Assembly: GCA_016584305.1 (NCBI GenBank)
Contig: JACEEZ010020928.1
Coordinates: 15,001 to 79,000, forward strand
Reading direction: 5' to 3'
DNA length: 64,000 nt
Source: Chionoecetes opilio
Lineage: Eukaryota > Arthropoda > Malacostraca > Decapoda > Majidae
The first letter of the stretch is position 1. Every line of letters starts with the position of its first letter. Made by a program: the position numbers and the translations under genes. Positions 5,270 through 64,000 of this stretch are shown here, piece after piece. Below the pieces are notes generated by a model. It was not told the DNA's origin. It made no database searches and was given only the letters and a program-made list of their open reading frames with translations.

Positions 5270-6160
5270 AGTTGTTGGGTGAAGAACAGGTGCGTTGTCT
5301 TTATGCTGAAAAGGTATACGCGGACGTTTTAAGAAGAGTTAGGTGTTACAAGGGTGGTAAGGCCGCCTCCTCATTGACAAAACAGCTACGCCAACTTTTT
5401 TTTTAAAGCTGGGCCCTGTTCCTCTTTCTTTGCAAGATAAAGTGGAAAAGGGGAACTTATAAGATTAGAGTCTCAGGGAGTAATTCAGCCTTTTAGCTAC
5501 AGTAATTAGGCGGCACCCCTTGTTGTCGTACCCAAGGCTTCGGGTAATGTCAGACTGTGGGGTTGATTTTAAGCTGACAGTGAACAAGGCCCCCAGCATG
5601 GAGCATATCCATTACCCAGGGTGGAGGAACTGTTTACTTCCCTTGTCGGTTGTCAAGTATTTAGCAAGTTGGACATGAGTCACGCCTACAATCAAATAGA
5701 GCTTGATGAAGATTCACAGACGTAGTGGTGGTCAACACCCCTAGGGGATTGAAGATGTTTACAAGACTTGCTTTTGAGATCCATTCAGCAGTGGCTTTTT
5801 TTTCAGAAAATATTGTCTAATCTCTTTCTGAGTTTCTCATGTGCGGTGTTTTCTGGATGATGTCGTCGTGGGTGGAAGGATCGGGAGGAGCACGACGCCT
5901 TGTTGGAGGAAGTACTACGAAGAATGTGGCAAGCGGGACTACGCCTGAATGGGGAAAAAAATGCCAACTGAGATTAAGCAAGGAACTTATCTGGGAAACA
6001 TGTGATAAGTGGCCGTGGAATAGATCCTACACAGGAGAAAACAAGAGCTTTTGGTCGGGCCCCCTTTTCCTACGGATTGAGTCTCTAAAGGCGTGGTTGG
6101 GATGCTAAATTATTAGGAAATTTTCCCCTCAAGGATATTGAAACTGTCTTAACACCTTTT
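5270..6160 (+). pseudogene. gypsy A reverse transcriptase
   Basis: It copies element RNA into DNA. Recognisable blocks in several frames are [20 protein letters not shown] (about 5,655-5,720), NTPRGL followed by FTRLAFEIHSAV (about 5,735-5,795), FLDDVVV with both catalytic Asp (about 5,849-5,869), and GLRLNGEKCQL (about 5,938-5,975). Indels and stops occur every 50-150 bases. The YxDD box reads FLDD, a common gypsy variant. Confidence 0.8.
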
Positions 6161-6690
6161 GTACATGCTGCTTCGACAAGGACACCCAGGGGATGTGGGG
6201 AAAGGAACAAGAAGTAGCATTCAATAAGGCGAAGGAATTGATAGCTAGTCCCCCCTGCCTAGCCCATTTTGATGTAACTTTGGAAGCTACCCTTGTTGTG
6301 ATGCCAGTCCTTATGGAGTTGCTGTGTGCTGTCCCAGACTAACCCTGACGGAGTGGAAAGACCAGTGGCATTCTACTCTAGGTCACCTTTAAAGAAACGG
6401 AGAGAAGATACGCGCAGACTGATAGGGAAGCCCTTAGTATCATTGTGGGAGTCAAGAAGTTTCACTACTTTCTTATACGGAAGACCCTTCACAATTGAAA
6501 CGGACCCTAAGCCGCTGCTGGGAATGTTCGGGAAGAAGAAACCCGTTCCTAATTGGCATCTCCTCGGGTAGTTAGATGGGCTTTGCATTATCCGCTATAA
6601 GTTTCGTCTTGTATATCTTCTGGCAAGCAACATGTCCACTGTGATGCTTTAAGTCGTCTACCCCTCGTGACACGCCCCAGACTGTACCTA
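6161..6690 (+). pseudogene. gypsy A RNase H
   Basis: It degrades the RNA of the RNA:DNA hybrid. The frame at 6,326-6,571 gives QTNPDGVERPVAFYSRS, then an indel, then FTTFLYGRPFTIETDPKPLL. The family normally has TDHKPL here, so an H to P change is visible. Further on VHCDALSRLPL (about 6,630-6,665) is the usual end of the gypsy RNase H domain. Confidence 0.8.
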
Positions 6691-6879
6691 CACCTGCTGA
6701 GACTCTTTATCTGATGGAGTTATGGAATCTGGTCCTGTGTCGCTTTCCAGGGTTTTGGGAGTGGACGAGACGTGATCCTGTAGTGTCGGCTGTTCTCCCG
6801 GGTTTGTTCATGAAGGTTGGCCCGCAAGTTCATTTTCCTCATCTGCTGAAGTTGGATCTTATAAAGCAGGTTGGATGAG

Positions 6880-8185
6880 TTAAGCATTCATGAGGGTTTT
6901 CGCATGTGGGGGAGTAGAATAGTAATACCTCCTCAGGGTCGGGATGCCATATTGACTGAGTTACATGAAGGGCATTTGGGGCATCCCGTATGAAAAGTCA
7001 CTGTAGAGCCTATTTTTGGTGGCCTGGAGTTGATCGGGAGATAGAAAACACAGCCAAGCAGTGTCAAGTGTGTCAGGAGCACAAGCCTTTGGTCCCCCCT
7101 TTAGAGCTGCATCCCTGGAGTTGGCCTCAGAAACCCTGTGTCGTCTGCATTTGGATTATTGGTGGCCCCCTTTGAGGGTCAGATGTGGCTGCTCATCACT
7201 GATGCACACAGTAAGGGCTGGATGTTTCATAAAGCATCGTCCCCTTTAGCATATGTGATATTGAGAAATGCAGACAAAGTTTGCCAATTTTGGGCCCTTT
7301 CCCGAGACCATTGTAACAGACAATGCTGCCTGCTTCACATGCCCGGAATTTCAGCATTTTGTCACGTAATGGTATCAGGAATATAACTTCTCCTCCTTGG
7401 TCCCTAAAAGTAATGGATAGTTGAGCGTGGGAGTGCAAAAATTTAAATTGGGACTGAAGAAACAAAGAGGTTGGTAGCCTGGGATACTAGGGTTGCTAGA
7501 TTTTGTTTAACTATCGCTGTAATCCTCATACTGCACAGGCGTAAGTCCCGCAGAGCTGCTATTCAAACCCTCCAAAGAGGACACACCTGGATCTACTCAG
7601 ACAAGATATTAGGAGAGGGAGAGTGGAGAAGTATCAGTGGGCTCAAAAGGTGGCGATATGATCAACATGCTCGACCAAGATCATTCACAGTGGGGGACGG
7701 AGTTTACGTATCCAGCGTGTCGAGGCTAGGGGGGCCTAAGTGGTTGCCGGGTACAGTGTCGGCTTGTCAAGGAACGGCATGTTGGTAACGCTGGAAACGG
7801 TAGAGTATTTTGGAGGCATATTGATCACATAAGACTCAGGACTAGAATCTTCCAGACCTACAGAGCCTGCAATGGTGCCCGGAGCAGCGGTTCCCCGACG
7901 CGTCAGGAGGACACGACGAACAAGAGTCTGGTTCAGAGTTCCGAGGGCCCCGTCTAAGTGAAGCACACGAACCCCAATTGAACCCTCCACGTTAGTCACT
8001 GCTTTCCTCATCCATACCCAGCGCAGTGCTTACCAGAAATGAGCACAATGAGGCCAAAGGATCATCAAAGACAGGGAGCCTAACTATCCATCGCCTCCTC
8101 AGCAGCCGGTAGAGAGGGAGTCGCCCACGGAGACGTCTGTCACGACGCCATAAGGCGTTCATCGAGGATGTCAAGGAAGCCAGAT
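6880..8185 (+). pseudogene. gypsy A integrase
   Basis: It inserts the cDNA into the genome. The zinc-binding HHCC domain reads HEGHLGHPRMK...YFWWPGVDREIE...CQVCQEHK (about 6,960-7,085). The core follows with LHLDY (first Asp, about 7,145-7,160), VTDNAACF (second Asp, about 7,313-7,336) and a broken NG..VERGVQ (Glu, about 7,410-7,435). The C-terminal part has DQHARPRSFTVGDGVYV and GPKWLPGTV (7,650-7,760), typical of gypsy integrase tails. All catalytic positions can be seen across frames. It ends about 130 bases before the 3' LTR. Confidence 0.8.
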
Positions 8186-8313: not shown

Positions 8314-8496
8314 TGTAGTAAACCAGTTAGGGGTTCAGTATTGTTCGAATACTGTTCGTGACTTATACGAACTTACGAGCTTAGGGAATGAACTTAGAGG
8401 AGCAGTTCAGCCCCAGCCGCATAGCTGTGTACACGGCCTCAATATACGCATGGACTTCCCCTGTTGTGTCCTTCCCCTGAAACCTGAGCTACAACA
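8314..8496 (+). repeat. gypsy A 3' LTR
   Basis: 183 bp, starting tgtagtaaaccagttagggg and ending gagctacaaca, preceded by the purine stretch gatggaggaa. It contains a near-palindrome gtattgttcgaatactgttcg. Its inverted copy on the right palindrome arm is at 36,421-36,599. Confidence 0.85.
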
Positions 8497-9170
8497 TGCC
8501 AGTAGGCGTCCTTGAGATCGAGGGACGCCATACAGTCCCCTTGCCTCAGCCGAAGTCGGACCTGGTCCAAGGTCAGCATACGGAACCAGTGGTTGCGCAC
8601 AAATCCGTTTAGGCGGCTGAGGTCCAAGATAAGCCGCCCCTTCGAAGAGTCCTTCTTGGGTACGATGAAAATGCGGGAAAGAAAGACCTTTCCCCGCGCC
8701 TTCTCCACTATCCCGGAGGAGTGCATGTCCGACACGTCGGAGGCGAGCACTGTGGAGACCGGTGTCCAAGAAGGAGGTCGCCGAAGGGGTGGTAGGGCAA
8801 TCCAGGGCGAAGAAAGACCGTTTCGGACCACCCTGGCGGCCCAACCTCTCTGCGGCCAGGCTGCCCGAAACCCGGACAGGAGGCCCTGGAAGGGAGGCTC
8901 AGAAGTGAGAGCGACCCTTTGGGGGAAGGCTTGTGGACAGTAGCGGGCCCCGAGCGAAAGGCCCGAGACCCAGAGCCCCTGAACGGAAGGCCCACCCCGA
9001 CTGGGGCGGGCGAGGATCCTGGGGCCATCCACACGGGGTGAGCACTCCCCGGACTGCCCCTCCCGACGAAAAGAGCCCCGACGACACTGCTGGACCCCCT
9101 CCCGGAACCCCCCGGCCGAGACGGTCTGGGGGCCCGGGAGACCCCAGAGGACGGTGGGGAGGAATTGAGG
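8497..9170 (-). pseudogene. DIRS copy 1 reverse transcriptase, N-terminal part
   Basis: The minus-strand frame reads FLSRIFIVPKKDSSKGRLIL, then DLSRLNGFVRNHWFRM and MASLDLKDAYWHV, which is the fingers/palm region of DIRS reverse transcriptase including the first catalytic Asp (LDLKDAYWHV). It stops at 8,497 because the gypsy LTR interrupts it. The protein resumes at 3,776 on the same strand. Upstream of about 8,930 the frame is proline/glycine-rich with no domain I recognise. The N at 9,172 marks a deletion relative to the right arm. Confidence 0.85.
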
Positions 9171-9171
9171 G

Positions 9172-9172
9172 N
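9172..9172. other. Ambiguous base N marking a collapsed gap
   Basis: This single N sits in gaggngctaacc. The bases on its left correspond to about 35,740 on the inverted right arm, and the bases on its right to about 33,775. The intervening 1.95 kb of DIRS sequence is absent from the left arm. Confidence 0.8.
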
Positions 9173-9194
9173 GCTAACCATGGGCCCAAACCCC

Positions 9195-19084: not shown

Positions 19085-19395
19085 CTTCCTCTGGTAGCCA
19101 GTGGCGCAGTGGTAGCGCGCTCAGTTCACAATCGAGAGGTACTGGCATTGCTGGGTTCGAATCCCGGCCAGCGAGGCAGGAGGGCGGTTCTCCTAAACCC
19201 GAGCCCTGCTACCCAGCGTGAATGGGTTCCAGGTGTAGCGGGGGTTGGACCCGCTTCCTGGGGTAAAGTACCGGTGTACTGGCCATGCCAGGATGCTTTG
19301 TTTTGGCCGACCAGGCGACATTCTGAGAAGATAAAGGCCACTGTTGTTCGCTCAACAAACATCCCTCTATTTCTACACCCGGAGCTAGTGGGTTA
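19085..19395 (+). repeat. tRNA-derived SINE (left arm, plus)
   Basis: The head gccagtggcgcagtggtagc holds an A-box and ctgggttcgaatcccggcc holds a B-box. The body contains acccgagccctgctaccc and accggtgtactggccatgcc, shared with the SINE at 17,500-17,705, and the tail runs to about 19,395. It is mirrored at 22,945-23,243. This is a SINE and not a functional tRNA gene: there is no CCA-side acceptor pairing and the body is 200 bp longer. Confidence 0.8.
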
Positions 19396-33790: not shown

Positions 33791-35979
33791 CGTCGTCTTG
33801 CGGTCCCCAAACCCCCCCACCCCGAAACCCCCCCCCCACCCCCCATGGGCCGGGTAGGGGAGTTGAGCGGGCCCCTGGCTGCCTGTCGCCCCCCCCCCTC
33901 CCCCTCCCACCCACTTTCCTGGGGGTCGGGGCAGGCGTGGGGCGATGCGATGGGGGTTTGGGGGGGCGTTTCGTTTTTGGTCTAGTCCCTTTCCCTTCAC
34001 TTTTTACCCTTCTTTTCCAGCGGATCAATTGTGGGCCCAGGGCTGCCGGTGTCTTTAGGTCCCGGGGCCACAACTTGCTCCTCGCACGGCCCCCGTGCCT
34101 TTGTGGGACCTCTTTCTCCCGCCGTTGCCCGGTATGCTGGATGGCGGCGGCTCACCCCCGGGGGGGGTGTCCCCCTGCTTTACCGGCGGGGCCCTATGCT
34201 AAACCCAAAGGAGGGTGGCGAAGGTTTTGGGGAAGTCTCCAACGCAGCCCTTCCGTCGTCTGGCGGACGGGTTTTGGGTTTCTGGGCTGGGCCCTCGCCA
34301 AGTCGTCCATCTCCCCCTCGTCTCGCACCTCCCGCCCCCTGCCTCTGCTTCCATGACTCGGCGCGATCGTGCTGACGGTGGAGAAAGATTGGGGGTCTCC
34401 TCAGTCCCTCCCCATGACCGGGGGGCCTCCCTTTTTTTTGAGGATTTCCCCGGGGGGTCGTGGCCCCCCGGTGGTCAGGGTCTCCGGGCCTTCCCCCCCC
34501 CCACCCCCTTTTTCCCGGGGGTTTCGGCTTAGATGTCTTAGTGAATTCCTTCATGGCAGAATGGAGTCCACTTAACTTCTGGGTCCCTTTTCTCCGACGC
34601 CGAGGCGTCGCGGTCCCCATCGCCTGCTTCCCCTCTCACCGGTGCCTCCTTTGAGTCTGTGGTATCGAGGATGACTACCGGTGTGCCCCACGGGGAAAAG
34701 GATGCTGCCTACCCGTGCCCAAGAACGCGGTTCGGGACTTCCGATCCCCGGTTCCCGTCCCCGGGGCCCCTTTCCCCCGCCTTTTTTTTCTGAGGGCCCT
34801 TTAGGTGCACTTCCCCTCGTCCCCCTGGGAGGATGCCTTGGGACTCCCTCCTTCTTCCCCGTCCCTTTTTTCCTGGGCACCGATTTTCCCCGTCATTGCT
34901 TGGAGTATTTACGGGCGGCTTGTTGCCTCGGCGTCTGGGGGACGGCTCGGGGGCCCAGTTCCAGACTTGGAGGTGCGTCGCTCCCCGGGGGGGCGGAGGA
35001 CAGGAGTCCTACCTTAACCCCCCGGATTCCCTTTTTCTCGCCCGGACGTCCCTGCAGCAGCCGCGGTTTTCGGGGCCGTTTGGATGCTCTGGCCTCCTAC
35101 TGGGGTGAGCCTAGTTTGGTCAAAGGGTGGCTTTCCCCTGTGTGGAGGGAAGCCCCGGATGCCAGTGGCTTTTTTTCGGGGGCCCAAAAAGGTTTCCCGG
35201 GGAAAGGGCCCGGGCCCGGACCCTGCCGAAGTGTGGAGAGCGGGTCCACCCGTGTGAACCGGGTCCTTCTCCGCCTGGGCCCCATCCCGGGTTTTCCCCG
35301 GCCTTGGTGGCTTCCCCCGTGTGATGGTGATTTTCCCCCGGGTGTCCCGGCTTCCCCCCAAGGACCTCCTGTGGCGGGCGCAAACCGGTGAAGGAGGAGC
35401 TTTTTTGCCGGGATTTTAGGAGCGGGGAACCGCCTCCCTGTTTACCTCTTCGTTTCCCCTTTTTCAGTCAGCGGGGACGGCCCCCTTCCTTTTCCCGCCC
35501 GTGGATCACACTTTCCCCCTCCCGCCCTCCCGGTCGGATGTCTGTCGGCTTTTTCGACCCCCCTGTGATGGGTTCGGGGCCTCCCTCCTCCCGACGGTCC
35601 GCCCCGCCATTGACGGGCCTCACTGCCCCCTTTGGGTCTTTCCCCCGGAGGCTTTCGGGACCGCCGGAGCGATCACAGAGATTCGCCGGATTTGTCCTTC
35701 GATTCGGGGGTCTTTTCGGAGCCCTCCTGAGCAGTGTTCGCCTCAATCCTCCCCCCCGTCACTCTGGTGTCTATCCGGCCCCCAAAACCCGTCTCGGGGC
35801 CGGGGGGGTTTGGGAGGGGGGCCAGCAGGGTTCGCGGGGCCTTTTTGTCGGGAGGGGCATCCGGAGTCCACCCCCGTGTGGATGGCCCCCCAGGATCCTC
35901 GTCGTCCCCGTCGGGGTGGGCCTTCCGGTTAGGGGCTTGGGTCTCGGGCCCTTTCGTCGGGGCCCGTACTGTCCACAAG

Positions 35980-36420
35980 CCTTCCTCAAAGGGGCGCCTC
36001 ATTTGAGCCTCCCTTCCAGGGCCTCCTGTACGGGTTTCGGGCAGACTGGCCGCAGAGACGGTTCGGCGAGGCCACGGGTGGTACGAAAACGGTCTTTCTG
36101 TCGGCCCTGGATTGCCCTACACACCCTTCGGCCGACCTCCTTCTTGGACAACGTACTCCACAGTGCTTCGCCTCCGACGTGTCGGACATGCACTCCTCCG
36201 GGATAGTGGAGAAGGCGCGGGGAAAAGTCTTTCTTTCCGCAGTTTCATCGTATCCCAAGAAGGACTCTTCGAGGGGCGGCTTATCTTGGACCTCAGCCGC
36301 CCTAAACGGATTTGTGCGCAACCAATGGTTCCGGTATGCGACCTGTGGACCAGGTCCGACTTCGGCCTGGAGGCAAGGGGGACTGTATTGGCGTCCCTCG
36401 ATCCAAGGACGCCTACTGGC
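35980..36420 (+). pseudogene. DIRS copy 2 reverse transcriptase, N-terminal part
   Basis: Corresponds to 8,497-8,960 on the left arm. Blocks YPKKDSSRG, LDLSRPKRICAQP and ASLDPRTPTGCC are in shifted frames and match PKKDSSKGRLILDLSRLNGF and MASLDLKDAYW of copy 1. It is cut at 36,420 by the gypsy LTR at the same base as on the left arm. Confidence 0.8.
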
Positions 36421-36739
36421 TGTTGTAGCTCAGGTTTCAGGGGAGGACCACACAGGGGACGTCCATGCGTATATTGAGGCGTGTACACAGCTATGCGGCT
36501 GGTGCTGAACTGCTCCTCTAGTTCATTCCCTAAGCTGTAAGTTCGTATAAGTCACGAAACAGTATTCGAACAATACTGAACCCCTAACTGGTTCATACAT
36601 TTCCTCCATAGTAGATACAAACAACATACTACACTGAACCCCCCCCCAAAAGAAACAAACAGAACAAAAGTTACTTCTACAACTTAAAGATATACATTGA
36701 TAAACTGCATTAAATATACTGCAAATCAATATTCCAGAT

Positions 36740-40524: not shown

Positions 40525-41010
40525 GCAAGTATTCTGGATTTTTGGGCAGGTTTCAACAGATCTGCCAACCCCAAACATAACAGACCATTAGATGTCATGC
40601 TAAAACCATTGTGAATTTTGTGACTAGAGTGAAATAAATTATATTTAGTTTAATTTTTTGAAAATTTGTCTGAAAAATTCATCACATGAAATATTTCCAT
40701 AAATGTTTCTATGCATTTTGATGTTTCAGTCAGCATCAAATTTACTTGCTTTAACCTCTTATGCCCATTTATTGGTGAAAAAATAGGCGAAAACAAACAT
40801 TCAAAAATGCTCCAAAAAACGGCGTTTCAGAAAACGTGTATAGAAATAAATTCATGCTTCATGAGGCAACGGTTTCCTGACATTTTGGGTTATAATGGTT
40901 GTAATTTCGACTTTTCCAGGTCAAAAAAGCATTGGAAAACCGTGCAGGGGGGTATAAAAATAAGAAAAAATTGTTTTCTGAACAGGTCTACCAGTGCCGG
41001 AGCTGACTCG
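40525..41010. other. AT-rich insertion or flank at the palindrome edge, unidentified
   Basis: About 490 bp, distinctly AT-rich (for example tttagtttaattttttgaaaatttg), with one 106-codon frame at 40,711-41,031 that I cannot assign. It matches neither the expected gypsy 5' LTR nor DIRS. It separates the right palindrome arm from DIRS copy 3. Confidence 0.6.
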
Positions 41011-41534
41011 ACAGCAGATTCTCCGGATTAGTCCCTTCGATTCGGAGGTCTTGTCGGAGCCCTCCTTGCAGCAGTGTCTCGCTTCAACCCCCCCCACCGG
41101 TCACTCTGGGGTTCTACTCCGGCCCCCAGACCGTCTCGGCCGTGGGGTTCCGGGAGGGGTCCAGCAGTGTTCGTCGGGGCTCTTCTCTTTCGGGAGGGGC
41201 AGTCCGGAGTGCTCACCCCCGTGGGGATGGCCCCCAGGATCCTCGCGTCCCAGTCGGGGTGGCCTTCCGGGTTCAGGGGCTCTGGGTCTCGGGCCTTTCG
41301 CTGGGGGCCCGCTACTGTCCAAAAGGGCCTTCCTCCAAGGGTCGCTCTCGTTTTCTGAGCCTCCCTTCCAGGGCCCTTTCCGGGTCCGGGTTTCGGGCAG
41401 CCTGGCCGCAGAGAGGTTGGGGCCCCCAGGGTGGTTCGAAACGGTCTTTCTTGGCCCTGGATTGCCCTACCCCCCCTTTTCGGCGACTCCTTCTTGGACG
41501 CCGGTCCCACATGCTCGCCGCCCACGTGTCGGAC

Positions 41535-42260
41535 ATGCACTCCTCCGGGGTAGTGGAGAAGGCGCGGGGAAAGGTCTTCCTTTCCCGCATTTTCATCGTA
41601 CCAAGAAGGACTCTTCGAAGGGGCGGCTTATCTTGGACCTCAGCCGCCTAAACGGATTTGTGCGCAACCCCCGGGTTTCCGTATGCTGACCTTGGCCCAG
41701 GCCCGCCTTCGGCTGAGGCAAGGGGACTGGATGGCGTCCCTCGATCTCAAGGACGCCTACTGGCATGTCCCATTCATCCTCGGTTCCGGCGTTTCCCTGG
41801 CCTTCCAGGTGGGATCGGACCACGTGGAAAGTTCACCAGACTGCCCTTCGGCCTCTCCATCGCTCCGAGGGTTTTTACGCGGCTCACCAAGGTGGTGGCT
41901 CAGCGGATGGTGTCTGCAGGGGTCAATTGCCTCTTGTATTTGGACGTTTGGCTGGTGTCCGCCCCGTCTCAGGAGGAAGCGGTTCGCATGCTGGACCGAG
42001 CTTTGGCGGTGGCGGGGGAGATGGGGTTCCTACTCAACAAGGGAAGTCCGTCCTTACCCCTCTCCCCCCCATTATTGGCTGGGCATGCAATGGGACTCCC
42101 GTTCAGCTGCGGTCCGCATCTCGGGGGAAAATGCGGCCAAGCTTCATCAACGCCTCTTCCGGCCTCGGTGTCCCGTTTTTGTCAAGGAGGCTTTGGGTCC
42201 CTTCTCGGCTCGCTCACTTAAACAACAGTCACTCCCCTGGGCCGTCTTCGTCTCCGTCGC
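41535..42260 (+). pseudogene. DIRS copy 3 reverse transcriptase
   Basis: Blocks in order: KKDSSKGRLILDLSRLNGFV (frame 40,994-41,689), MASLDLKDAYWHV with the first catalytic Asp (41,730-41,770), FTRLPFGLSIAPRVFTRLTK (frame 41,658-42,221, about 41,830-41,890) and CLLYLDVWLVSAPSQEEA (41,930-41,985). The last is the YLDDWL box with the second Asp changed to Val by one base (gat to gtt). Copy 1 keeps DD at this site, so the enzyme encoded here would be dead if the base is real. Confidence 0.85.
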
Positions 42261-44499: not shown

Positions 44500-44716
44500 C
44501 GGAACAGCCGGCCTCGTTCAGATGGGCACGCGTTGCAGGGAGTATGTTCTTTTTCAGTTTATCTATGTGTAGCCTGGTATGTGTAACCAGAGTTGGTATT
44601 GAGTTGCTGTATACCCAGGTTTGCCCTGGGTGGCACGACTTTCCTATCCTATTAGCTTAGGCAACTAGCTATGTCAGGGACCCAAAAACAGGCTTTTCAT
44701 ACTTCAAAGCCGTCAA
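44500..44716. repeat. DIRS copy 3 right terminal repeat
   Basis: Ends ttcatacttcaaagccgtca at about 44,716, identical in layout to the reverse complement of 680-930. It includes the cccaggtttgccctggg palindrome. The flank attttaccc begins directly after. Confidence 0.8.
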
Positions 44717-45354
44717 TTTTACCCTCCGAAAATTGCTGAGCTCGGACTGACCAATCCTTGGGTTAAATGCGGAATCTCGCACACCAAATAACACTCCATT
44801 CCCTTGCCCACGGGTTTGACTTTTCAACATTTGAAGTGAAAAGCATCGGGAACCAACGGGACCACGTGTAAAGCTCCCGCAAAACATTTCCATAATCGCA
44901 CCACGATTACGAAGAATTTTAATTATTGGCGCTATCGTGGAAATTGACCTCAAGACGTGCAGACCACGATAGCCTCACAACAGTGTCACCGCTGCCTGTA
45001 AAGATAGCCAGTTGCAAGAATGTTCTCGTCGTGTGCGTATGGATCCCGGCATCGAAATCCCCGAATGCACAGGTTCAAGAACGCTTCATTTCACCCCCAC
45101 CCAGTGCCCCATCGTGAAAAGATTCTTCGGGCGGTAACACCATAACGATGAGATGATCAATGTAGCGACCATATATTATAAATACTTCCAGTGTACATCT
45201 ATTAATCAACATATTCAATATGGACACGTTTCTGAGTAAAGAATCAAACGCGGTTGCTGAGCCAAAAAGGCAGCTAATTCATAATTTTCAGTGCGTGAAT
45301 CAAGACAATCGGATCAATGCATACACATACATACATACATATATATACATATAT

Positions 45355-45433
<79 letters not shown>

Positions 45434-45950
45434 TCTATATATATATATTTAAAGTATATACGGGCAGGATATTTTCTCTGGGACAGATATCGTTAAAAGT
45501 GATCGCTCGTCCCAGCGTTATATATTTTCAAAGGATATTTTCTCTTTGTCTTAAGAGTGTCTTTTTTCTTTGTGATCAATTATGACTTTGCCGTAGCTGG
45601 TCATTTGCTGGTTATCGCGATTCGGGTTATGGGACCATTCATTCTTCAGCAGCGTGGGAGAGGATGTTTTCTCCTCAGATGTAGAGGTGAGCATGATGGG
45701 AGTGGATGTGTAGTGGAGGGAGGTGGGGATAGGACAGGTTGGGTGAAAGAAGAATTAAAGAGAAGAAGATAAGTGAAGGAAAAAGTATGAGGAAAGTCGA
45801 AGAGTGGATAGATGGCGGACTAACCGCCTTGCTATATTTTTTATTAAAAAATTATTTTATTGTTAGTCGCTCCTCTTTTTTGTATTTCATCTTATCAATT
45901 GATATCTATTTAATTATTATCATATTATGCTCCCTTTAAATTTAATTCTT
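44717..45950. repeat. Unidentified block present twice in the window
   Basis: Recurs directly at 61,999-63,235. It contains an inverted pair cgctatcgtg/cacgatagc (44,930-44,975), a 34-codon frame MDTFLSKESNAVAEPKRQLI (45,220-45,320) and a (TA)n tract at 45,318-45,450. The short frame vaguely resembles the start of some transposase or zinc-finger proteins, but I cannot name it. This is the flank that received DIRS copy 3. Confidence 0.6.
45318..45450. repeat. (catacata)n and (TA)n microsatellite
   Basis: A short acatacat run then 110 bp of TA. The direct-repeat copy is at 62,600-62,728. Confidence 0.9.
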
Positions 45951-46099
45951 TAACACTCCGATTTGAGCAAAAAGACAGATCAGCATCTACCTAAAAAAAA
46001 AAAAGAAGACAAAAGTAGAAAAAAATAGTATATATTATATAATAAAGTAAATAAAAATAAAGTAGAAAATTAGCTAATAATGCCTTCTTCTCAATCTGT

Positions 46100-47950
46100 T
46101 ATATTGGGTGTGGTTTATTTTATTTAGCTGAATGCATGGTTTCCTGAACCAACCATGTTCCTGTTGTTATTGTTTGCAATTATTTCCATGTATAATGAGT
46201 TTGTAATATATTTATAAGTCTGTGTTTGTGTTTTTGACCTCTGTTCATATAAGTTGTGTTATTGATTCCAGTTTCCTAATTGGTGCAGTTCTGCTGTGTT
46301 TCTTCATATGGGTATTTTCATCGAAGGCGAACCTTAAGGCTTATATTTTAAACGTGGTGTAGTGATAGCATAGCTGATTTGGGATAATGTGTTTAGTGTA
46401 TATTGTTGGACTAATGTCAGCATTGGTAGGATACATGCTTTTATTAAATGTAGTTTTATATTAGTAGGTAATCCTGTAATCTTTTTTAAAGTTGTAGTGC
46501 TGCTCCTGCTTTATTTTTGTTATGTTTTACTTGATTCAAAATACCTTTCTTTTGAATTTAGTCCTAGTATTTTGCCTTCGCTGGAGTAAGGAATAAACTG
46601 TTCCCTCTATATTAAGGGGTATGTTTTCTTAACCGCCTATTGGGATTAATTTAAAATTTTGTTGAGTTCGTTGGATACTCCATTTATTTTCAAATTGTGA
46701 TTCTTTCTATTCTGCTTACCACCTTAGCAGCCAGAATCTTCTGATTTATTAGGCTGCTGTATGTATAATTGAGTGATGTCATCTGAATATATCATATGTA
46801 CAACCTACTGAAGGTGCTGGAATGTCTTGGATGTGTTAGAGTGAGTAGAGGGTCGGTGAAAGGGAGGCTGTCCCGAGGCACTCCGCTTCTATATCCTGAA
46901 ATATATTACCATTGTAGTTATTTAGTATGCTTGCTGTTCTGTTTTCCAAAAAAGTGCAAATTTAGTTGTTTAATGATGTCTGGCAATCCTGTTGTTAGTA
47001 CTTATATTTTGGGCCCTTGTGCAAGGACTTTATCAAAGGATTTTGATACGTCTCGTAAAAAACTAAGTAGCATTGTTGTTGCTGGCTAGAGCGTCAGCTT
47101 ATTTTTCTGTTGTTCACAGCCAGCAGTGTCTGTTACCCCTAGATACTCTAAAAACCTATGCTGTGTTTCCGGTGAGGAAATATTGTTAGTTTCTAGGTAT
47201 TTACTAAGTCTTTTGGTAATATTTTTTCATAAATTTTCCCTGGGACTCAAGCAAGGAAATGGTCTCTATAATAATTGATTGAATCTGTACTTGTCTTATT
47301 GCTTTAGGTTATAAGGGTTATGTTGGCATGTTGAATTTGTTAGGAAAATACCCTAAGATAATGAGGAATTTAAAATTTGTGTATATTGTAATTGCTTCCT
47401 CTGGCATGTTTAACAATATGTTTTATTTATTTGGCTATGACCAGGTGTGTGTTTTTAAGTTGTTTATGATATTATTTATATTTTCTTCGTTGTTATCTTG
47501 AGCAGTGATATAATTCGAGTCCCGTCAAGTCTAGTTATATCAGCCTTGTCAATCTTGCTTGCAGGTTCCATTATCTGCTATGTATTATCTACTATAGCTC
47601 AGTATTTGGTTCGAAATTCTGTTTCTTTCGGGATGATATAAAAGACGTTTTCCAGATCTTCTCTAAAAACTTCCTCCTTCTCCTCCTCCGTTGTAGAGCT
47701 TTTTTATTATTATGTATAATGTGTTTTTTTTTTTTAATTTTTTATGGGGAGAGGTGTTGCTTTTATTTCCTCTCAATTTTTTACATTTTCCCAGAAATCT
47801 TGGGGGTTTGATACCAAGGTTTTTAAGTCATTTATTTTTGTTTTCCCAGTTATTAGTATACTGTTCTTTGCATTCTTCTATTAGATTTTTCCTTAGTAGT
47901 TTTGTAAATTATATATTTCACCATACGTCCAACCACGCATCTCAGCTTCA
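46100..47950 (-). pseudogene. Jockey LINE reverse transcriptase and C-terminus
   Basis: It would prime reverse transcription at the nicked target. Minus-strand blocks, in several frames, are NPQDFWENVK (about 47,790-47,820), the conserved LINE segment upstream of RT, then SLLESQGK (about 47,225-47,250), equivalent to RPISLLxxxGK. FRVSRG (about 47,155) is equivalent to GFRxxRGT. NIKLHLIKACILPMLTL and NTAELHQLGN (about 46,260-46,470) belong to the C-terminal region. The YADD box could not be located with confidence. Family assignment to Jockey is by recall of these blocks. Confidence 0.7.
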
Positions 47951-49237: not shown

Positions 49238-49321
49238 TATCATAAGCCTCGCCTTATACTCATCCTGTGTGACACAAACACACACACCACACCACACACA
49301 CACAACACCCAACACACACAC

Positions 49322-49366
<45 letters not shown>

Positions 49367-50010
49367 CCACACACACACACACACACACACTATGCCTGGA
49401 GTACCACTAACTACCCTTCCTCAAATCAACACGAAGGAAGCACCGGGAACAATCCGGATCTCGACGGTTTTTGGGGTTTTTTTTTTGCAACTCAAGCTGA
49501 GTGAAGCAGCCCCAGGCAAAATACGAGGCATTTATAAACCTCGTTTTTTTGTTAGTCAGTCAGCTGTATATAGCTGAAGCGTTACTACTCTCTCGAGGAA
49601 ACATAGCCCCCCCCCCCAGTAACACCATTCCGTGGTGCCTCATTAAGTAAGTACAACCAGCAACATTAGCACCGGGGACTTCTACTCAAGTCACTCACAT
49701 ATTATTATTAGCTTACGACAGGTGGGTGAAAATTCCCATCTTAGTATTCTTTTTGTGTTTTCTCTAGGGTTAATTATCTTGTGTTATGTACATCATTGCG
49801 TCATTTAGTTATATAAGCATTTTCTTTAGCATCTCTGTTGGGCTCAAAAGCCAAGATCATATTTACTCCTTGCTACAAGGTGATTTATTTGATATTTTAA
49901 ATTGGTTATTGTTTATTCTACTTCTGTCCAATCACCTTTTTGTTATGGTTTCGGGCGTTTCAGTCTCGCTACTCATTCCTCTAGACAACTCACTGTCTCC
50001 GCTCGTAACA
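49238..50010 (+). repeat. Gmr1-like element 5' LTR
   Basis: From tatcataagcctcgcc to ctcgtaaca. It contains a (CA)n tract (49,267-49,390). After the LTR gttgggggcctgaccggg could be the primer-binding site. Matches 55,744-56,523 throughout. Confidence 0.8.
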
Positions 50011-50636
50011 GTTGGGGGCCTGACCGGGATTGTAATAACCTTTACGGGTGTTATCTATAAACTCACTCAGTGATATTTCATATTTTTCTGTGTTTCACCC
50101 CCGGTATTTTCTTTGTGTGAGAGTTCACTGTGTCTATGTTGGTGGGTTATTACTTACGTGTGCTACATGATTGAGCGTCTTGTGATAGCTGTGCCTTTAA
50201 AAAAATCATACACGAAGGCCTGGTGTAGAGGCATTTTACAGTTCGTCACACTGCTTAAATTACTTATTAGCTCTGTTTGATTATTTTTCCAAGTAGGACA
50301 CTTCCTCCCCGCTAAGCTATACTGACTCATCTTTCTCACGGAAACCAGCGAGTTCCAAATCGAGTTACTCACGCGATTATTAACTGGGGACAGTTCCAAA
50401 ACTCAAACATTTGAGTACCGTATGCCAGATCTGTCGTGCGGATTGTGGGTACTGATTCTCTGGTCTTCTCCATGGCTCGTTATATCCTGAAGTGAACATC
50501 TCAGGGGTTCATTCCCCTATCAAACTCATGTCAGGGTAGTTTTCAGTTTAAGAGCTCGAGTGATTTTCCTGAAATAGAGGCCCTTGGCATCTCTCTTTAA
50601 CCCTATGTGTGGTATAATTTTGTTTTAACATACTCA
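50011..50636. other. Leader of the Gmr1-like element, no gene seen
   Basis: Non-coding interval between 5' LTR and gag. Its frames have no recognisable similarity. A leader of this length is normal for gypsy elements. Confidence 0.5.
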
Positions 50637-51860
50637 TGGGGTTGATGCGGAAGAGGTTGTCGGTAATCCCCTCTGCTGAAGAACTTAAAGCTGCAAGAGT
50701 TACTAAGATCATCTCAAGTATATGCCGCTAACTTTGGCATCCAGTTCACTCATGATACTAAAAAAGGAAAACTTAATGGGACACTCATTTTAAATCATCT
50801 AGGTTAAGAAAAAAAAAAAAACCAAGAACTGACCCTCAGTCAGAAACCACACTCTAGAGGTTCTCAGACACAGTACTTCTCCTAAGAAGTGGAGAAAGTG
50901 AAAAATGCTTTTACAAGGTATTACAAATGAAAGTTAGACTAGAAAGAGCGAAAAAAGAACATGATAGAGAAGAAAAAAGAGCGTGAAGAGAAGAAAAAGA
51001 ACGTGAAAGAGAACGTGAAAGAGAAGAAAAAGTTTCTCGAAACGCCCGAAAATAACAGTTACAATTTATCAAGAGGTGAAACTTAGTAGAAAAAACTATA
51101 AAAAGTAGAGCAGGAAAAAGAGGCATGATAGAGAACATCAGTTAAAAAGTCCCGATCTGCAGAATAAAGGTCACGCCACTCAAACTCCAAATAAATTACA
51201 ATTAACAAAAATTTTGCCTCTTTACCTCAGTTCCTGATTACGATCCTGAAGCTTTTCTTTGATGAGTTCGAATCCTTGCCCACGCATTTCAGTAATAAAG
51301 AGTATGGACCTGGCTTGTCAGCCAAAACTTAATGGAAAAGGCTTTATCTGTTCTAGACAGTGTTGCAGGATAATGCCGAATTATGATGTAGTTAAAGAGT
51401 GCTATACTACAGCTTACGCGGTCACCACAGAAAGATACCGACAAAACGTCGCAAACAGAAACCAAAAATACTGGTCAAAACTTACCTAGGAATTTGCCTC
51501 AGAGAAAATTCAGAGCCCTTAAAAACTGGCCAAGTCTGCATCAGTCCACACTTATGGACGATCTGGTAAATCTCGTAGCACTGGAGAATTAACGTAAAAT
51601 ATCCTACTCAATCATGTGCACATTACAGCAGGAGAGACAAAACCTACTCAAGCTGCTAAAATAGCAGATGTCTTTTTCCTTAGTACATAGCCCTGTATCT
51701 CGGGAAGAGAAGTAGAAGGTCAGTCCATTGTAAGTTTCAGGTGCAAGTATGAAAAAGGATGAAGTCTGTAGATAGTGGTTCCAAGCCAAGTGTGTTCTGC
51801 TATTTCTGTAAGAAAACTGGCCACCTCATAAAGAAAACGTCCTGACCCTAGGTTGATAAA
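50637..51860 (+). pseudogene. Gmr1-like gag
   Basis: The start segment MGLMRKRLSVIPSAEELKAA (from 50,637) resembles the short helical leader of these gags. A long charged Glu/Lys/Arg coiled-coil region follows (50,935-51,060). The capsid part contains AYAVTTERYRQN and RNRNQKYWS (51,410-51,475), the conserved YRxxFR-like motif. The zinc knuckle CYFCKKTGHLIKK is at 51,798-51,836. Its fourth Cys is missing (cgt where tgt is expected). At least four frameshifts break it. Confidence 0.75.
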
Positions 51861-52300
51861 GTAGCGAAAATGGGCACATTTTCTAAACCAGGTGCTCGGT
51901 GAACACAATAATTCCACTCCCTTTTGTTACTGATACTTTCAAAACCTTCAGGTCACAACGGGGACTGTCTCCCTCGACTCGGACTCTGAGGAGCGCCCCT
52001 CTCCAGATTATGCGGGATACTGCTTCTGCCCAATCAATCCTCTTAAATCTGCACTTCCAGAAGTATGAACGGAAGATTACAGGGGAGAAGGTCTGGACCT
52101 CAAGGATTTCACCAGACTTAACCGTACCTGTGGTAGGGTGTACCTGATTGTCCGCTATTGTTACTAAGGAGTGTAACCATGCTGTCCAGTGAGGACAAGT
52201 CTTTACCCATTCCTCATACTAAACTTAATGTTAGCAACGATCTGGCTGGTGAGTTAGTCATTCCACCCTTCTCACTAATAACTCACATTACCATACAACC
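51861..52300 (+). other. Expected protease region, not clearly recognised
   Basis: The interval between zinc knuckle and integrase contains SLDSDSEERPSP-like and RTCGRVYLIVRYC-like frames. I cannot find a clear D-[TS]-G active site. A protease could lie here in damaged form. Confidence 0.3.
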
Positions 52301-52389
52301 CCACAGCTAACATGGAAAGAGCAGCAAGCTTTCCTAACTGTGCCGTACCGTGCACAGTCCGAAGCAACTGACCTCAAATACCCCCTCAG

Positions 52390-53628
52390 CCCTTGTCAAC
52401 TACCACTCCTCATACGCCTAACGTAAGTCTTGGCCAATGTATCTCTGAAAAAACTACTTGCGAGGCTCAACGAGGACGATGCTACTCTGTCTCAGGTACC
52501 ATGCAGAACACATTCCTAAAGATTCAGATCACTCATCCCCCTTCTTTCTCATTACCAGGACAAAGTTCTTATGAGGGCATCAAACTGCATAAACTTCTGA
52601 TGATGCACTGGGATGAGTCACCAAATTGTATTGCCAATCAACTTGAGAGAGCCAATTCATGGAGACGCTCATGGAGAACAAGCAGTCACATTAGGAATTA
52701 AGAAAATGTGTCAAAATACTCAATGATTGTTACGGCCAGAGAAAAAAAAGACATAACTTCAATGATAAATTCTTGTCACCACTTGCGAAGATTATGGGGA
52801 AAACCTAAACCAAATATTCCAGTACCACTCCAAACCTATCAAGTGCCTGAGGAACCTTTTCAAAAGATCATCATTGATCATCGTTTGGCCATTGCCCCAA
52901 AGACTAGCGTGAGGGAACCAATACCATCCTAACATTAGTGCCAACCACCCCCGATACCCTCTGATGACGGCTTTTTTCTTCGTCTTCTTTTCCCAGCTTT
53001 TCCCCACTTCTTTATAAAAAAAAACATTACAGCCACCCCACAAACAAAAACAATGTGTCAAAACTCACTCAACTGTTCACTACCCTTTGGCCATACTAGG
53101 GAAATTCAAAGTGACCGCCCCGGCACTGGCAAAAATTTCACGAGCGGAGCGGATTCTTTTGCAGCAAAGCAGTTCTGGCAGAGCTTGGAACCACACAGAA
53201 TCTATTCTCGGCATTTTTTCACCATACCATCCTCAACACAAGGTTGCTTTGGCAGAGAAGCTTGTCACCAGACCCGTAAGGCACTTCTTTCCGCAAGTTT
53301 TGACATGACAAGGAACAAGATATGGGACGAAAACCGAACGAAAAACGAAAGCCTTACCTTTCGTGCCTATTCGCCATACGGGAGAACACCCAACGAGTCC
53401 CTGGTGTTTGCTCCCTTTGAGCTATTGTTTGGTCGTAATGTTAGGGGGGCCACTTAAGTAATCAAAGAAACAGATTGCTAAACAACACTACCAGTAAACT
53501 TGTCACTATCACTCAATACATTGAGGGAGAAACTTAGGGAAACGTTAAGAAATACTCTTGACCAAGTCCCGCGCCTTCATTTGCTCGAAGCAATCTCAAA
53601 CAAAGGCTCCAAGTGGTAATGGTTAATG

Positions 53629-53720
<92 letters not shown>

Positions 53721-53960
53721 ACCTTTGCTAATAAAGCTAAAGTTTTAAGTAAGAACATTCAATGAAGGTACCAAGAGTCCTTGCTTTCATTTCCTAGTCT
53801 TTGGTTCACCTTTACAAGCTAAATACCATGTGGTCATTATACATCAGTTAGGAAAGGTCTCCAGCTTAAAGTGACAATAACTATATCAAAACACTCCGAC
53901 CGCCGTTAAAAAGCACTCAGCTTAATTCACATTAACTACTGAAATTATACAAGAGTAGAC
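52390..53960 (+). pseudogene. Gmr1-like integrase
   Basis: The zinc-binding part is degraded (HTSDDALG, about 52,590-52,615). The linker PLQTYQVPEEPFQKIIID (about 52,825-52,880) leads to the first catalytic Asp. REIQSDR (second Asp, about 53,098-53,120) is followed by NFTS. YHPQHKVALAEKL (53,225-53,265) carries the Glu. NESLVFAPFELLFGRNVRG (frame 53,053-53,457) ends the core. The C-terminal domain (FGSPLQAKYHV, about 53,800-53,830) follows a run of 91 A (53,629-53,719). All three catalytic residues are present across frames. Confidence 0.8.
53629..53719. repeat. Run of 91 consecutive A inside integrase
   Basis: Uninterrupted A homopolymer between GTTAATG and CACCTTTGC, where the related proteins simply continue. 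No LINE or SINE sequence is attached to it. Confidence 0.95.
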
Positions 53961-54129
53961 CAAAAACCTTGCACCTGATACAAATAACATACCTGATTCA
54001 AAATACAATGGCCAGGTTGCAACCATTTCTGTACCTGAAAATTACCCACCACCCTTGTAAACAGGTACAGATTGTGAAAAAAAAAAAAAAACTCAACCAT
54101 ACTTGGTAATCTCAGAGATACCTAACACA

Positions 54130-55700
54130 CCTATCTTTCCTCTCACAGGGAGAGAGGGGGAGAGGGAACCATGAAAGAGGAGAGACATTGAGAGACCCCA
54201 TAAACCACCATTATGCTAAACCATAAAGATTGTCCTTGGCGGATCATCCTAAAATCATTGTAACATGACCTCCCACGCCCCTCCACGGATGTCGAGCTTT
54301 CTCCCAGGAACATCTCCTTCTTCGTCAACCACCCCTACCGAATCTACATCCTCGGAAAATTTGACCACGATGAGGCAAGAGCTGGTCTGGATTATTACTC
54401 CAGCAGGGATGGCTATTCCCAGCCCAGTCTCCCGTGGGTCGTAACCATGGCTTCTCGTCCTCCAAGGAGGATGGAAAACAATTGCGCCTCTGCACGAACT
54501 AACGACAGAGTACAGCAGAGTAAACGCCTGTGACTGTTCGGAATCGCCTACCCTACTTTTACCCAAAAAACCAAAAAAAAAAAAAAAAGAATAGATGATC
54601 CATGGACAAGGGTTTTGTGAACGACTAATTATATAACTAAAAAATTGGACTTACTGAAGGGATACTTACAACATTACCCCTTACGAAAAAGGCACCAACA
54701 AAATATCAGCCTCTTCATCACACCCTTTGGTATTTTACCAATACAGAGTCATTGCCTTTTGGGATGAGGTGAGGAATGCCCCTTCTACCTTCCAAAGGCA
54801 AATGGATCTATTATTACGGATCTGGCTTGGTGGAGTTTGTTACTTAGACGACATTATGATATTTACAGAGCATTGGGAGCAGCACCCCTTCTAAAACTCC
54901 GGAAAGTTGTCTGACCAACTTGCAGGGAGCACAACTGGACCATCAAGCTGGCCAAGACCACCTTCAGCCGAGCCACGGTGGACATACCTGGGGACACGAG
55001 TGGGACAAGGCCATACGTACGACCCAAATATGGCCAACATCTCCGCCATCTTGGAGTACCCTGCCCCTACTACTCGGAAGGCCGCCTACGGCGCTTTCCT
55101 GGGTATGGCAGGTGTACTAACGGAGATTCTGTCCCAACTCGCGGCCGCCCGCTACCGTCCCGTCTCAATGGCTCCACTATGTGGGGCGTGACCTACCACT
55201 GGCCCGGACGTCTGCCAAAGCGCCTTCAACCCAAATTAAGAACTTCCTCTGTCCCAGGGTCCCGTGGCTCCATCGTCCCCGACTTCGCCAAACCCTTTGC
55301 TCTGCAAAAGATAGCCAGCGACCAACCGCCCTTAGGGAGCTGTACTCTTACAAGAGGTGAGGGCATTCTCACCCCTTGGCATACCACTTCCAGCACGTTC
55401 AACATCCACCAAAAGCGGTACAGCACCATCGAGAAGGAACTCCTGGCAATCGTTTTTCTCAGCGTACAAAAATTCAGTGTTATCTCCAGCCCAAGTCAAG
55501 ATCCCTTTAAAAGTCTCCACTGATCACAACCCTCTGTCCTTCCTAAATCGCGCCAAGTTACCACCATCAAGCCTTCTCCGATGGTCTATCATTCCTCCAC
55601 CTCACAACCTGACCATCATTACACACAAAGGGCACAACGACAACATCATTGCAGACGCTCTCTTCGCACCTGAGGCTCAACTAGACCCAGTTCAACTCCT
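54130..55700 (+). pseudogene. Gmr1-like reverse transcriptase and RNase H
   Basis: Blocks in order: YSRVNAC (about 54,510-54,530), KLDLLKGYLQ (54,640-54,672), FITPFG (54,715-54,735) and CYLDDIMIFT with both catalytic Asp (54,837-54,866). Next come NISAILEYPAPTTRKA (frame 54,907-55,191) and the RNase H segments FAKPFALQ (55,285-55,310) and FNIHQKRYSTIEKELLAIVF (55,397-55,458). STDHNPLSFLNRAKL (55,515-55,560) and IIADAL (55,645-55,662) complete the domain. It ends about 40 bp before the polypurine tract, so no integrase follows. Confidence 0.85.
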
Positions 55701-55743
55701 ACGGACTCCACATCCCTCCCATGGCGTCCGTGATGGGGGGAGA

Positions 55744-55775
55744 TATCATAAGCCTCGCCTTATCCTCATCCTGTT

Positions 55776-55818
<43 letters not shown>

Positions 55819-56523
55819 CCACCCACCACCACACACACACACACAAACACACACAACACACACACACACACACACACACACACCACACACACACAACACA
55901 CACACACAACCCACTGCCTGGAGTACCAATAAACTACCTTCCCTCAATCAACACGAAGGCAAGGTCACCGGAACTACTCGGGATCTCGCCCGGTTTGTTC
56001 GACTCAAAGCTGAGTGAAGCAAGCCCAAGGCAAAATACGAGGGATTTATAAACATCGTTTTCTTCTGTTCAGTCAGTCATTCTGAATAGCTGCTGAAGCG
56101 TTTACTACTCTCTCGATGAACCCATAGCTAGTAACACCATTCTTGTGCTTAAGTAAGTACCAAACCAAGTCAACATTGGCCCACCGGGGACTCTACTCAA
56201 GTCAACTACATTATTATTTATTAGCTTTACACCTGTGGTGAAATTCATTCCTAGTATTATTTTTGTGTTTGTTCTCTAGCGGTTACTAGTCTGTGTTATG
56301 TACATATTGGTCATTTAGTTAGAAAAAGCATTTTCTTAGTGCTAGTCATCTTGTTTGTATGCTTCAAAAGCAAGATATCTACTCCTTGCTACAAGGGATT
56401 TATTTGATATTTTAAATGTTATTGTTATCTACTTTCTTTCCATCACCTTTTGTTATAGGTTTCGGGCTTTTAGTTCTCGCTACTCATTCCTCTAAGACAA
56501 ACCTCATGTCTCGCTCAGTAACA
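55744..56523 (+). repeat. Gmr1-like element 3' LTR
   Basis: Direct copy of 49,238-50,010 with a longer (CA)n tract (55,778-55,910). Ends ctcagtaaca. The next bases gtaatattatc are flank. Confidence 0.8.
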
Positions 56524-56529
56524 GTAATA

Positions 56530-61800: not shown

Positions 61801-61839
61801 GATAGATCTGATAAATGAACGTGGCCCGTATGTTTCTTT

Positions 61840-61998
61840 TCGTTTTCTTGTGTAGCCTGGTTTGTGAAAACCAATTTTGGGTTTGGTTGCCTGTATACCC
61901 AGGGTTTGCCCTGGGGGGCGATCTTTCCTATCCTATAGCTTAGTGCACTAGCTCTGTCAGGGACCCAAAAACAGGCTTTTCATACTTCAAAGCCGTCA
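61840..61998. repeat. DIRS terminal repeat (second copy of the 44,716 end)
   Basis: Contains tgtagcctggttt, ccagggtttgccctgg and the end ttcatacttcaaagccgtca followed by ttttaccc, identical in arrangement to 44,560-44,716 and its flank. Only the outer half of the repeat is present. Confidence 0.8.
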
Positions 61999-62648
61999 TT
62001 TTACCCTTTCCCGAAAATTGCTTGGGGGCTCGTACGACCAATCCTTGGGTAATGCTGGAATCTCGCACCCCAAATACACTCCATTCCCTTGCCCACGGGT
62101 TTGACTTTTTCACATTTGTAAGTGAAAAGTCATCGGGAACCAACGGGACCAGTGTAAAGCTCCTGCACACATTCCATAATCGAACCACGATTTACGAACA
62201 ATTAATTATTGGCGCTATCGTGAATTTGACCTCAATACGTGCAGACCACGATAGCCTCACAACAGTGTCACGCTCCCTGTAAGTATAGGCCAGTTGCAAG
62301 AAGGTCTCGTCGTTTTGCCGTATTGGATCCCGCATCGAAATCCCCGACTGCACAGGTTCAAGAACAGCTTCATTTCACCCCCACCTGTGCCCCATCGTGA
62401 AAAGATCTTCGGGCGGTAACACCATACCGATGAGATGACAATGAGCACCATATATTTATTAAAAATTCCAGTGTACATCTATAATCAACATATTCAATAT
62501 GTGACACGTTTCTGAGTAAGAATCAACGCGGTTGCTGAGCCAAAAAGGCAGCTAATTCATAATTTTCAGTTGCCGTGAACTCAAGACAATCGGATCATGC
62601 ATACACATACATACATACATATATATACATATATATACATATATATAT

Positions 62649-62696
<48 letters not shown>

Positions 62697-64000
62697 ATAT
62701 ATTTTATATATATATATATATATATATTTAAAGTATATACGGGCAGGATATTTTCTCTGGGACAGATATCTTTAAAAAGTGATAGCTAGTTCAGCGTTTA
62801 TTATCTTTTTCAAGATATTTTCTCTTTGTCTTAAGAGTGTCTTTTTTCTTTAGTGATCAATTTTATGACTTTGCCGTAGCTGGTCATTTTGCTGTATCGC
62901 GATTTCGGTTATGGACCATTCATTCTTCAGCAGCGTGGAGAGATGTTTTCTCCTCAGATGTAGAGGTGAGCATGATGGGAGTGGAGTGAGTGGAGTGGAG
63001 TGGGGATAGACGGGGTTGGGTGAAAGAAAAATTTAAAGAGGAAGAAGATAAGTGAAGGAAAGTATGAAGGAAAGTCGAAGATTGGATAGATGGCGGACTA
63101 ACCCCTTTGCTATATTTTTTATAAAAAATTTTTATTTTTTTGTTAGTCGCTCTCTTTTTTGTATTTCATCTTTATCAATTGATATCTATTTAATTATTAT
63201 CATATTATGCTCCCTTTAAATTTATTTCTTAACATCTCAGATTGTAAAAAGAAAAGATCAGCATCTAAAAAAAAAAAGAAGACAAAAGTAGAAAAAAAAA
63301 ATTATATATATAATAAAGTAAATAAATAAAGTAGAAAATTTAGCTAATATTCCTTCTTATCAATCTGTGTATATTGGGTGTGGTTTTATTTATTTAGCTG
63401 AATGATTGGTTTCCTAAACCCAACCATGTTCCCTGTTTTTATTGTTTGAAATTTATTTCCATGTATAATGAGCCCTTGTAATTATTTATAAGTCTGTGTT
63501 TTTTTGTTTTGACCTCTGTCATATAATGTTGTGTTTATTGTTTCCCAGTTTCCCAAATTGGTCCCATTTTCTGCTGTGTTTCTTTCATATGGGTATTTTT
63601 TCATCGAAGGCAAACCCTTTAAAGGCTTTATTTAAACTTTTTGTAGTGATAGCATAGCTGTTTTGGATAATGTGTTAGTGTATATGTGGGTTTGTCAGCA
63701 TTGGTAGGATACATGCTTTATTAAATGTATTTTTAATTAGTAGGTAATCCTGTAAATCTTTTAAAGTTGTTAGTGCTGCTCCTGCTTTATTTTTGTTATG
63801 TTTTACTTGATTCAAAATACCTCTTCTTTTGAAATTTAGTCCTAGTATTTTGCCTTCGCGGGGAGTAAGGAATAACTGTTCCCTCTATACTTATAGGGAA
63901 ATGTTTTTCTTAACCGCCATTGGATAATTTAAAATTTTTTGAGTTCGTTTGGATACTCCATTTATTTTCATAATTGTTGATTCTTTCTATTCTCTTACCA
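61999..64000. repeat. Direct repeat of 44,717-46,730
   Basis: The sequence follows 44,717 onwards at a constant offset of about 17,275 bases to the end of the window. It includes the unidentified block, its (TA)n tract (62,600-62,728) and the 3' end of the Jockey LINE (63,235-64,000, minus). The repeat continues past the window. Confidence 0.9.

Follow-up and report, generated by a model that had tools for sequence, protein, structure and literature searches.

For the Gmr1-like group of Ty3/gypsy elements, the reference is reportedly Goodwin and Poulter 2002. Passages of three papers describe these elements as gypsy elements with the integrase (INT) upstream of the reverse transcriptase (RT) (PMC6238403, PMC8220671, PMC2774666), and part of another counts Gmr1 among the clades of several phyla (PMC8556966). 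According to sections of two further papers, the SCAN domain is derived from a Gmr1-like Gag (PMC3424704) and occurs in more than half of the Gmr elements of frogs (PMC4131045). Extracts of a 2013 study report four Gmr1-related elements from shrimps, a prawn, and a spider crab and name GyRex4/GyRex5, Gychoro2, GyMaja1, and GyLiva4 of decapods; the order in GyRex4/5 is argued there from a pair of fragments that do not overlap and are both similar to a fish element of Gmr1 structure (PMC3587641). Gmr1 is unmentioned in the accessible portion of the main text of a decapod repeat paper (PMC10454600). Here we analyze an element at positions 49,238 to 56,523 of a 64,000-nucleotide stretch (the window) of Chionoecetes opilio contig JACEEZ010020928.1. 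We are highly confident that this copy represents a young, multicopy Gmr1-like Ty3/gypsy element, most likely malacostracan, and that its frame breaks are most likely uncorrected sequencing errors.

The element is a long terminal repeat (LTR) retrotransposon with the layout LTR, primer-binding site, Gag (a SCAN-like part and a zinc knuckle), protease, INT, RT, RNase H, polypurine tract, and LTR. The LTR pair was found by blastn at 49,238-50,012 and 55,744-56,525 (E value of 1.6e-164, 79.7% identity over 834 columns with 111 gaps), and refinement of the termini gave 49,238-50,010 and 55,744-56,523, so that the outer coordinates of the original prediction were exact. Both LTRs begin with TATCATAAG and close with GTAACA, and the element ends are TA...CA. 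Because the window frames are badly broken (the longest plus-strand frame in the element has 202 residues), we sought relatives and aligned pieces of the domains of four of them singly to the window by tblastn. These alignments placed INT, RT, and RNase H on the plus strand in the predicted order, with the RNase H ending beside the polypurine tract as had been claimed. Pfam searches of 10 single-frame window pieces matched RVT_1 (E value of 1.3e-4, 22.2 bits, under the cutoff of 29.6), RT_RNaseH_2 (1.3e-6, just under the cutoff), and RT_RNaseH (1.2e-5, above the cutoff), and a DUF842 match was at chance level. The C-x2-C-x4-H-x4-C zinc knuckle is present in a consensus of nine relatives. The putative protease is assigned by its position and its active-site motif, DTA in the window copy, with no Pfam protease match.

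The element is a candidate member of the Gmr1 clade by three features, which we compared with published descriptions of the clade. A single LTR pair encloses INT and, downstream of it, RT; RT and RNase H are of the gypsy type; and there is a SCAN-like Gag, whose signal in the window itself is weak (39 bits, no Pfam match). The domain order, taken alone, would also be explained by a copia element whose RT has diverged. However, RVT_1, RT_RNaseH, H2C2, and p58_C were matched among eight relatives scanned with Pfam, and RVT_2, the RT of Ty1/copia elements, had no match in these eight proteins or the ten window pieces. The best PDB match of a profile of the relatives was Ty3. We give the copia explanation a vanishingly small probability, and the gypsy type that had been predicted for the enzymes stands.

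We scanned the genome of origin (1.94 Gb, 20,818 contigs) and scored 41 RT-RNase H and 40 INT match rows, the best of 316 and 274 candidates, with the window included. INT and RT matches were paired when they lay at most 6 kb apart on a single strand. All 25 pairs were INT first (with 24 distinct INT matches, including that of the window; contig C5386 contributes two pairs), and none had RT before INT. The gap between INT and RT was 539 to 545 bases in 18 pairs and ranged overall from 245 to 875 bases. For 16 of the 40 INT rows, none of the scored RT matches lay within 6 kb, which is not evidence of lone integrases because the best 40 candidates alone were scored. Among 20 copies that we fetched, 18 had all seven domain pieces and 19 had INT before RT; L016 lacked the SCAN piece alone, and L017, which includes 5,000 N, had RT and RNase H only. 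The SCAN-like Gag piece scored 65 to 127 bits in 18 of the 20, and 15 showed an LTR-to-LTR structure with all seven pieces. Both outer LTR termini were located in 15 of the 16 LTR-paired copies, counting the window. Scans of viral contigs with the RNase H and integrase pieces gave 11 and 6 pattern-matched stretches and no confirmed relatives.

The INT-RT order could be an artifact if two gypsy elements had been joined at about 53,960-54,130 by a nested insertion or a misassembly. The contig is poor enough to invite this explanation, with a high indel rate and a large imperfect palindrome (680-20,864 versus 44,715-21,457, in four main blocks with 81 to 87% identity, 9 to 13% indels, and a center near 21.16 kb). 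However, INT was upstream in all 24 pairs on other contigs, including 18 with the 539- to 545-base gap, and one of the 20 fetched copies has a single open frame of 851 residues, with no unknown residue, that runs from the interior of the integrase zinc finger through RT to RNase H. Other species show the identical order, and INT and RT-RNase H are each placed among malacostracan sequences (see below). We therefore give a join of two elements in the window a negligible probability as the source of the order and rule it out. As a control, the identical method applied to a conventional gypsy element at 5.4-7.1 kb of the window and to L029, a copy of that gypsy in the same genome, returned RT, RNase H, and then the integrase zinc finger.

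We took relatives from the best 120 of 4,087 matches of an RNase H search and the best 120 of 2,064 matches of a search with the integrase part of one relative, which added 109 new proteins. Of the 120 proteins taken from the RNase H search, 59 contained both INT and RT, and INT preceded RT in all 59, although the apple protein P0123 should not be counted among these, being a fused model in which an RNase H piece precedes the core. Among the 109 new proteins listed from the integrase search, INT came first in 96 of 97 holding both, and the sole exception, P0144, has two INT-RT units in tandem. Since the integrase search had no RT in its query, it is an independent test that such integrases belong to INT-first elements. 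The Pfam order in P0011 and P0015 was SCAN, H2C2, rve, p58_C, RVT_1, and RNase H, and P0008, P0010, P0013, P0019, and P0076 held subsets of these domains in the same sequence; six of the eight scanned proteins matched SCAN. The INT-first order is thus common to mantis shrimp, penaeid shrimp, mud crab, and fish relatives. P0008, P0010, P0013, P0015, and P0019 (Oratosquilla, Scylla, and Penaeus monodon) were 66 to 69% identical to P0001, which in turn was 82 to 84% identical to copies in the window's genome. Of three hits, two carry the name Chionoecetes opilio, and these match copies in the window's genome at no more than about 60 to 75%.

We inferred trees with IQ-TREE from 30 rows of RT-RNase H and from 24 rows of INT. 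The RT-RNase H tree placed a copy from the window's genome with Scylla, Oratosquilla, Penaeus monodon, vannamei, Panulirus, and Petrolisthes in a 16-row group (support 83/96), and the INT tree placed it with Scylla and P0011 (98/96). INT-first proteins of fish and coral fell outside the group of this copy in both trees, as did urchin in the RT-RNase H tree, and several deep forks in the two trees lack resolution. A third tree, which added the RT-first gypsy L029 and left out the apple, Palaemon2, and P0001 rows, agreed; L029 formed a very long branch that stands apart. Taken together, the window order, the relatives, the genomic copies, and the trees support the prediction of a Gmr1-like gypsy with INT first in a crustacean-like genome.

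The family is young, as judged from low LTR mismatch and 4-base duplications. The LTR pairs of 15 other fetched copies had a median mismatch of 0.43% (range, 0 to 3.2%). Matching 4-base flanks were found in 11 of 15 copies, with the window included and L026 omitted because its 5' end was not located; shuffled flanks gave a mean of 2.5 matches and a maximum of 7 in 5,000 shuffles. The family therefore leaves 4-base target duplications. By analogy with LTR retrotransposons in general, transcription would start in the 5' LTR, Gag would build the particle, and the protease would cleave a single polyprotein. A tRNA would prime reverse transcription, the polypurine tract would prime the second strand, and integration would yield the 4-base duplication.

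The frameshifts of the window copy are most likely for the most part uncorrected sequencing errors and not decay. Compared with nine copies, the window had 3.9 to 6.4% mismatches, 10.2 to 11.2% inserted bases, and 1.6 to 2.7% missing bases over RT-RNase H and 3.6 to 6.9% mismatches and 14.4 to 16.1% inserted bases over INT (missing bases over both regions, 1.6 to 3.8%), whereas four copies compared with three others differed by 0.3 to 1.4% mismatches, with neither kind of gap exceeding 0.9%. Uncorrected long reads are rich in insertions, and neutral decay produces mostly substitutions. We read the breaks as errors because insertions exceeded substitutions against all nine copies, and in both regions they outnumbered mismatches and deletions. 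Both window LTRs were also close to those of other copies in mismatches and had insertions in excess: against the L011 LTR, each had 3.7% mismatches, with insertions of 9.0% and 10.3%, and against the L009 LTR, mismatches were 3.5% and 3.7% and insertions 6.6% and 6.3%. Alignments to all four copies compared across the run of 91 A's in the integrase stop at 53,621 and restart at 53,713-53,714.

Several observations weigh against our interpretation. No integrase, protease, or SCAN Pfam model matched in the 10 single-frame window pieces, and these parts of the window copy were detected through relatives alone. The crustacean INT-first proteins P0089 and P0107 fell outside the group that holds the window family, and crustaceans therefore hold more than one INT-first lineage. 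The flanks of the window copy do not match (TCAT versus GTAA), as is the case for three further copies. Against one copy of another element, the left arm of the palindrome had 3.3% mismatches, 1.5% insertions, and 1.4% deletions, and the right arm had 4.4%, 3.0%, and 4.5%, respectively; since neither arm is insertion dominated, the poor stretch may be local. The arms and the missing target duplication would fit a copy that is old and decayed, with frameshifts that arose as real mutations, as would the 7.8% mismatch between the window LTRs, set against the median of 0.43%. Other copies are broken too, with the longest frame spanning 182 to 999 residues across the 15 fetched copies that contain no more than one N; apart from the 851-residue frame, copies with N runs (L013, L016, L017, L018, and L025) were excluded from this range for their false long frames. 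Given the excess of insertions against every copy compared, we consider decay unlikely and retain sequencing error as the more probable explanation.

Table 1. Positions of the parts of the Gmr1-like element in the window
Feature	Position	Strand	Evidence
5' LTR, TATCATAAG...CGTAACA	49,238-50,010	+	blastn pair; termini located across copies
Primer-binding site, TGGGGGCCTGACCGGGAT	50,013-50,030	+	Like stretch, with small differences, 3' of the 5' LTR in other copies
Gag capsid part, SCAN-like	51,430-51,688	+	tblastn, best E value 8e-8, 39 bits
Gag zinc knuckle	51,762-51,833 (about)	+	tblastn of P0011 and P0013
Putative protease region, two frames	51,896-52,280	+	tblastn with SCAN-to-INT pieces of P0015, P0019, and P0011, E values 1.6e-10 to 2e-12
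Integrase (zinc finger, core, C-terminal part)	52,616-53,829	+	tblastn of H2C2, rve, and C-terminal pieces; best rve E value 5e-10
Integrase zinc finger	52,616-52,779	+	Piecewise tblastn
Integrase core	52,825-53,274	+	Piecewise tblastn
Integrase C-terminal part	53,257-53,829	+	Piecewise tblastn
91-A run within the integrase C-terminal part	53,629-53,719	+	Sequence and copy alignments
Reverse transcriptase	54,370-55,149	+	Weak Pfam RVT_1 in one piece; tblastn E value 3e-21
RNase H	55,183-55,662	+	Pfam RT_RNaseH; tblastn E value 1e-15
Polypurine tract	55,734-55,743	+	Sequence; like tract at the equivalent place in other copies
3' LTR	55,744-56,523	+	blastn pair; termini located

The primer-binding site may resemble the sequence complementary to the 3' end of a proline tRNA. 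CA-rich simple repeats lie inside both LTRs (49,290-49,395 and 55,778-55,912) and in those of other copies. The element is flanked on both sides by a direct repeat (44,542-46,721 and 61,828-64,000) that is 88.8% identical and about 17.3 kb apart. The palindrome is possibly a hairpin adapter missed in a long read or a real inverted duplication. The gypsy matches at 5.4-7.1 kb and at 39.5-37.4 kb on the minus strand were considered as two controls and rejected as such, since the palindrome makes them one element; this conventional gypsy (5,400-7,200) had at least 40 further match rows scored in the same genome. Three pieces in frames at 8,407-9,173 (minus strand), 35,331-36,508 (plus strand), and 40,982-41,689 (plus strand) had no Pfam match; judged by eye, these frames resemble what we take to be a DIRS-type RT. 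ARAGORN called a tRNA-Val (cac) at 19,095-19,175, inside the palindrome.

The window element is a new, ordinary representative of an established group. As far as the consulted descriptions go, its family is like the Gmr1-like elements in its gypsy-type RT and INT, the upstream INT, and the SCAN-type Gag, and it differs from them by its crustacean host, the one difference shown. Like GyRex4/5, Gychoro2, GyMaja1, and GyLiva4, as portrayed in the extracts and likened here by description, it is Gmr1 related and found in decapods, and it adds an LTR-to-LTR structure. In each of the Oratosquilla, Scylla, and Penaeus monodon relatives, a single predicted protein carries the same domain order (no integrase core was recognized in P0013), and the host differs. 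The expectation that a crustacean copy would be useful for tracing when the order arose did not hold up, as the INT-first layout in crustaceans has been known since 2013, going by those extracts (PMC3587641). Among the papers listed by a literature search, none was about crustacean Gag, judged by title. The family adds a well-populated, young, LTR-to-LTR example to the crustacean Gmr1-like elements, which is little by itself. The apparent decay of the window copy, and perhaps the palindrome also, probably reflects sequence errors and should not be taken as biology without better reads.

Possibly, though we think it less likely than not, the INT-first order had a single origin deep in animals, jointly with the SCAN-type Gag, and one lineage has retained both ever since. 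INT-first proteins from an octocoral (P0071), fishes (P0076, P0088, and P0095), and malacostracans fit such an origin, and SCAN occurs together with the INT-first order in fish P0095 and in crustaceans. In urchin P0091, SCAN, RT, and RNase H were found and the integrase was not, and SCAN was not shown for octocoral P0071. Horizontal transfer, instead of descent, could also have spread these elements. If a single deep origin is true, the SCAN fold would long predate the SCAN proteins of vertebrates.

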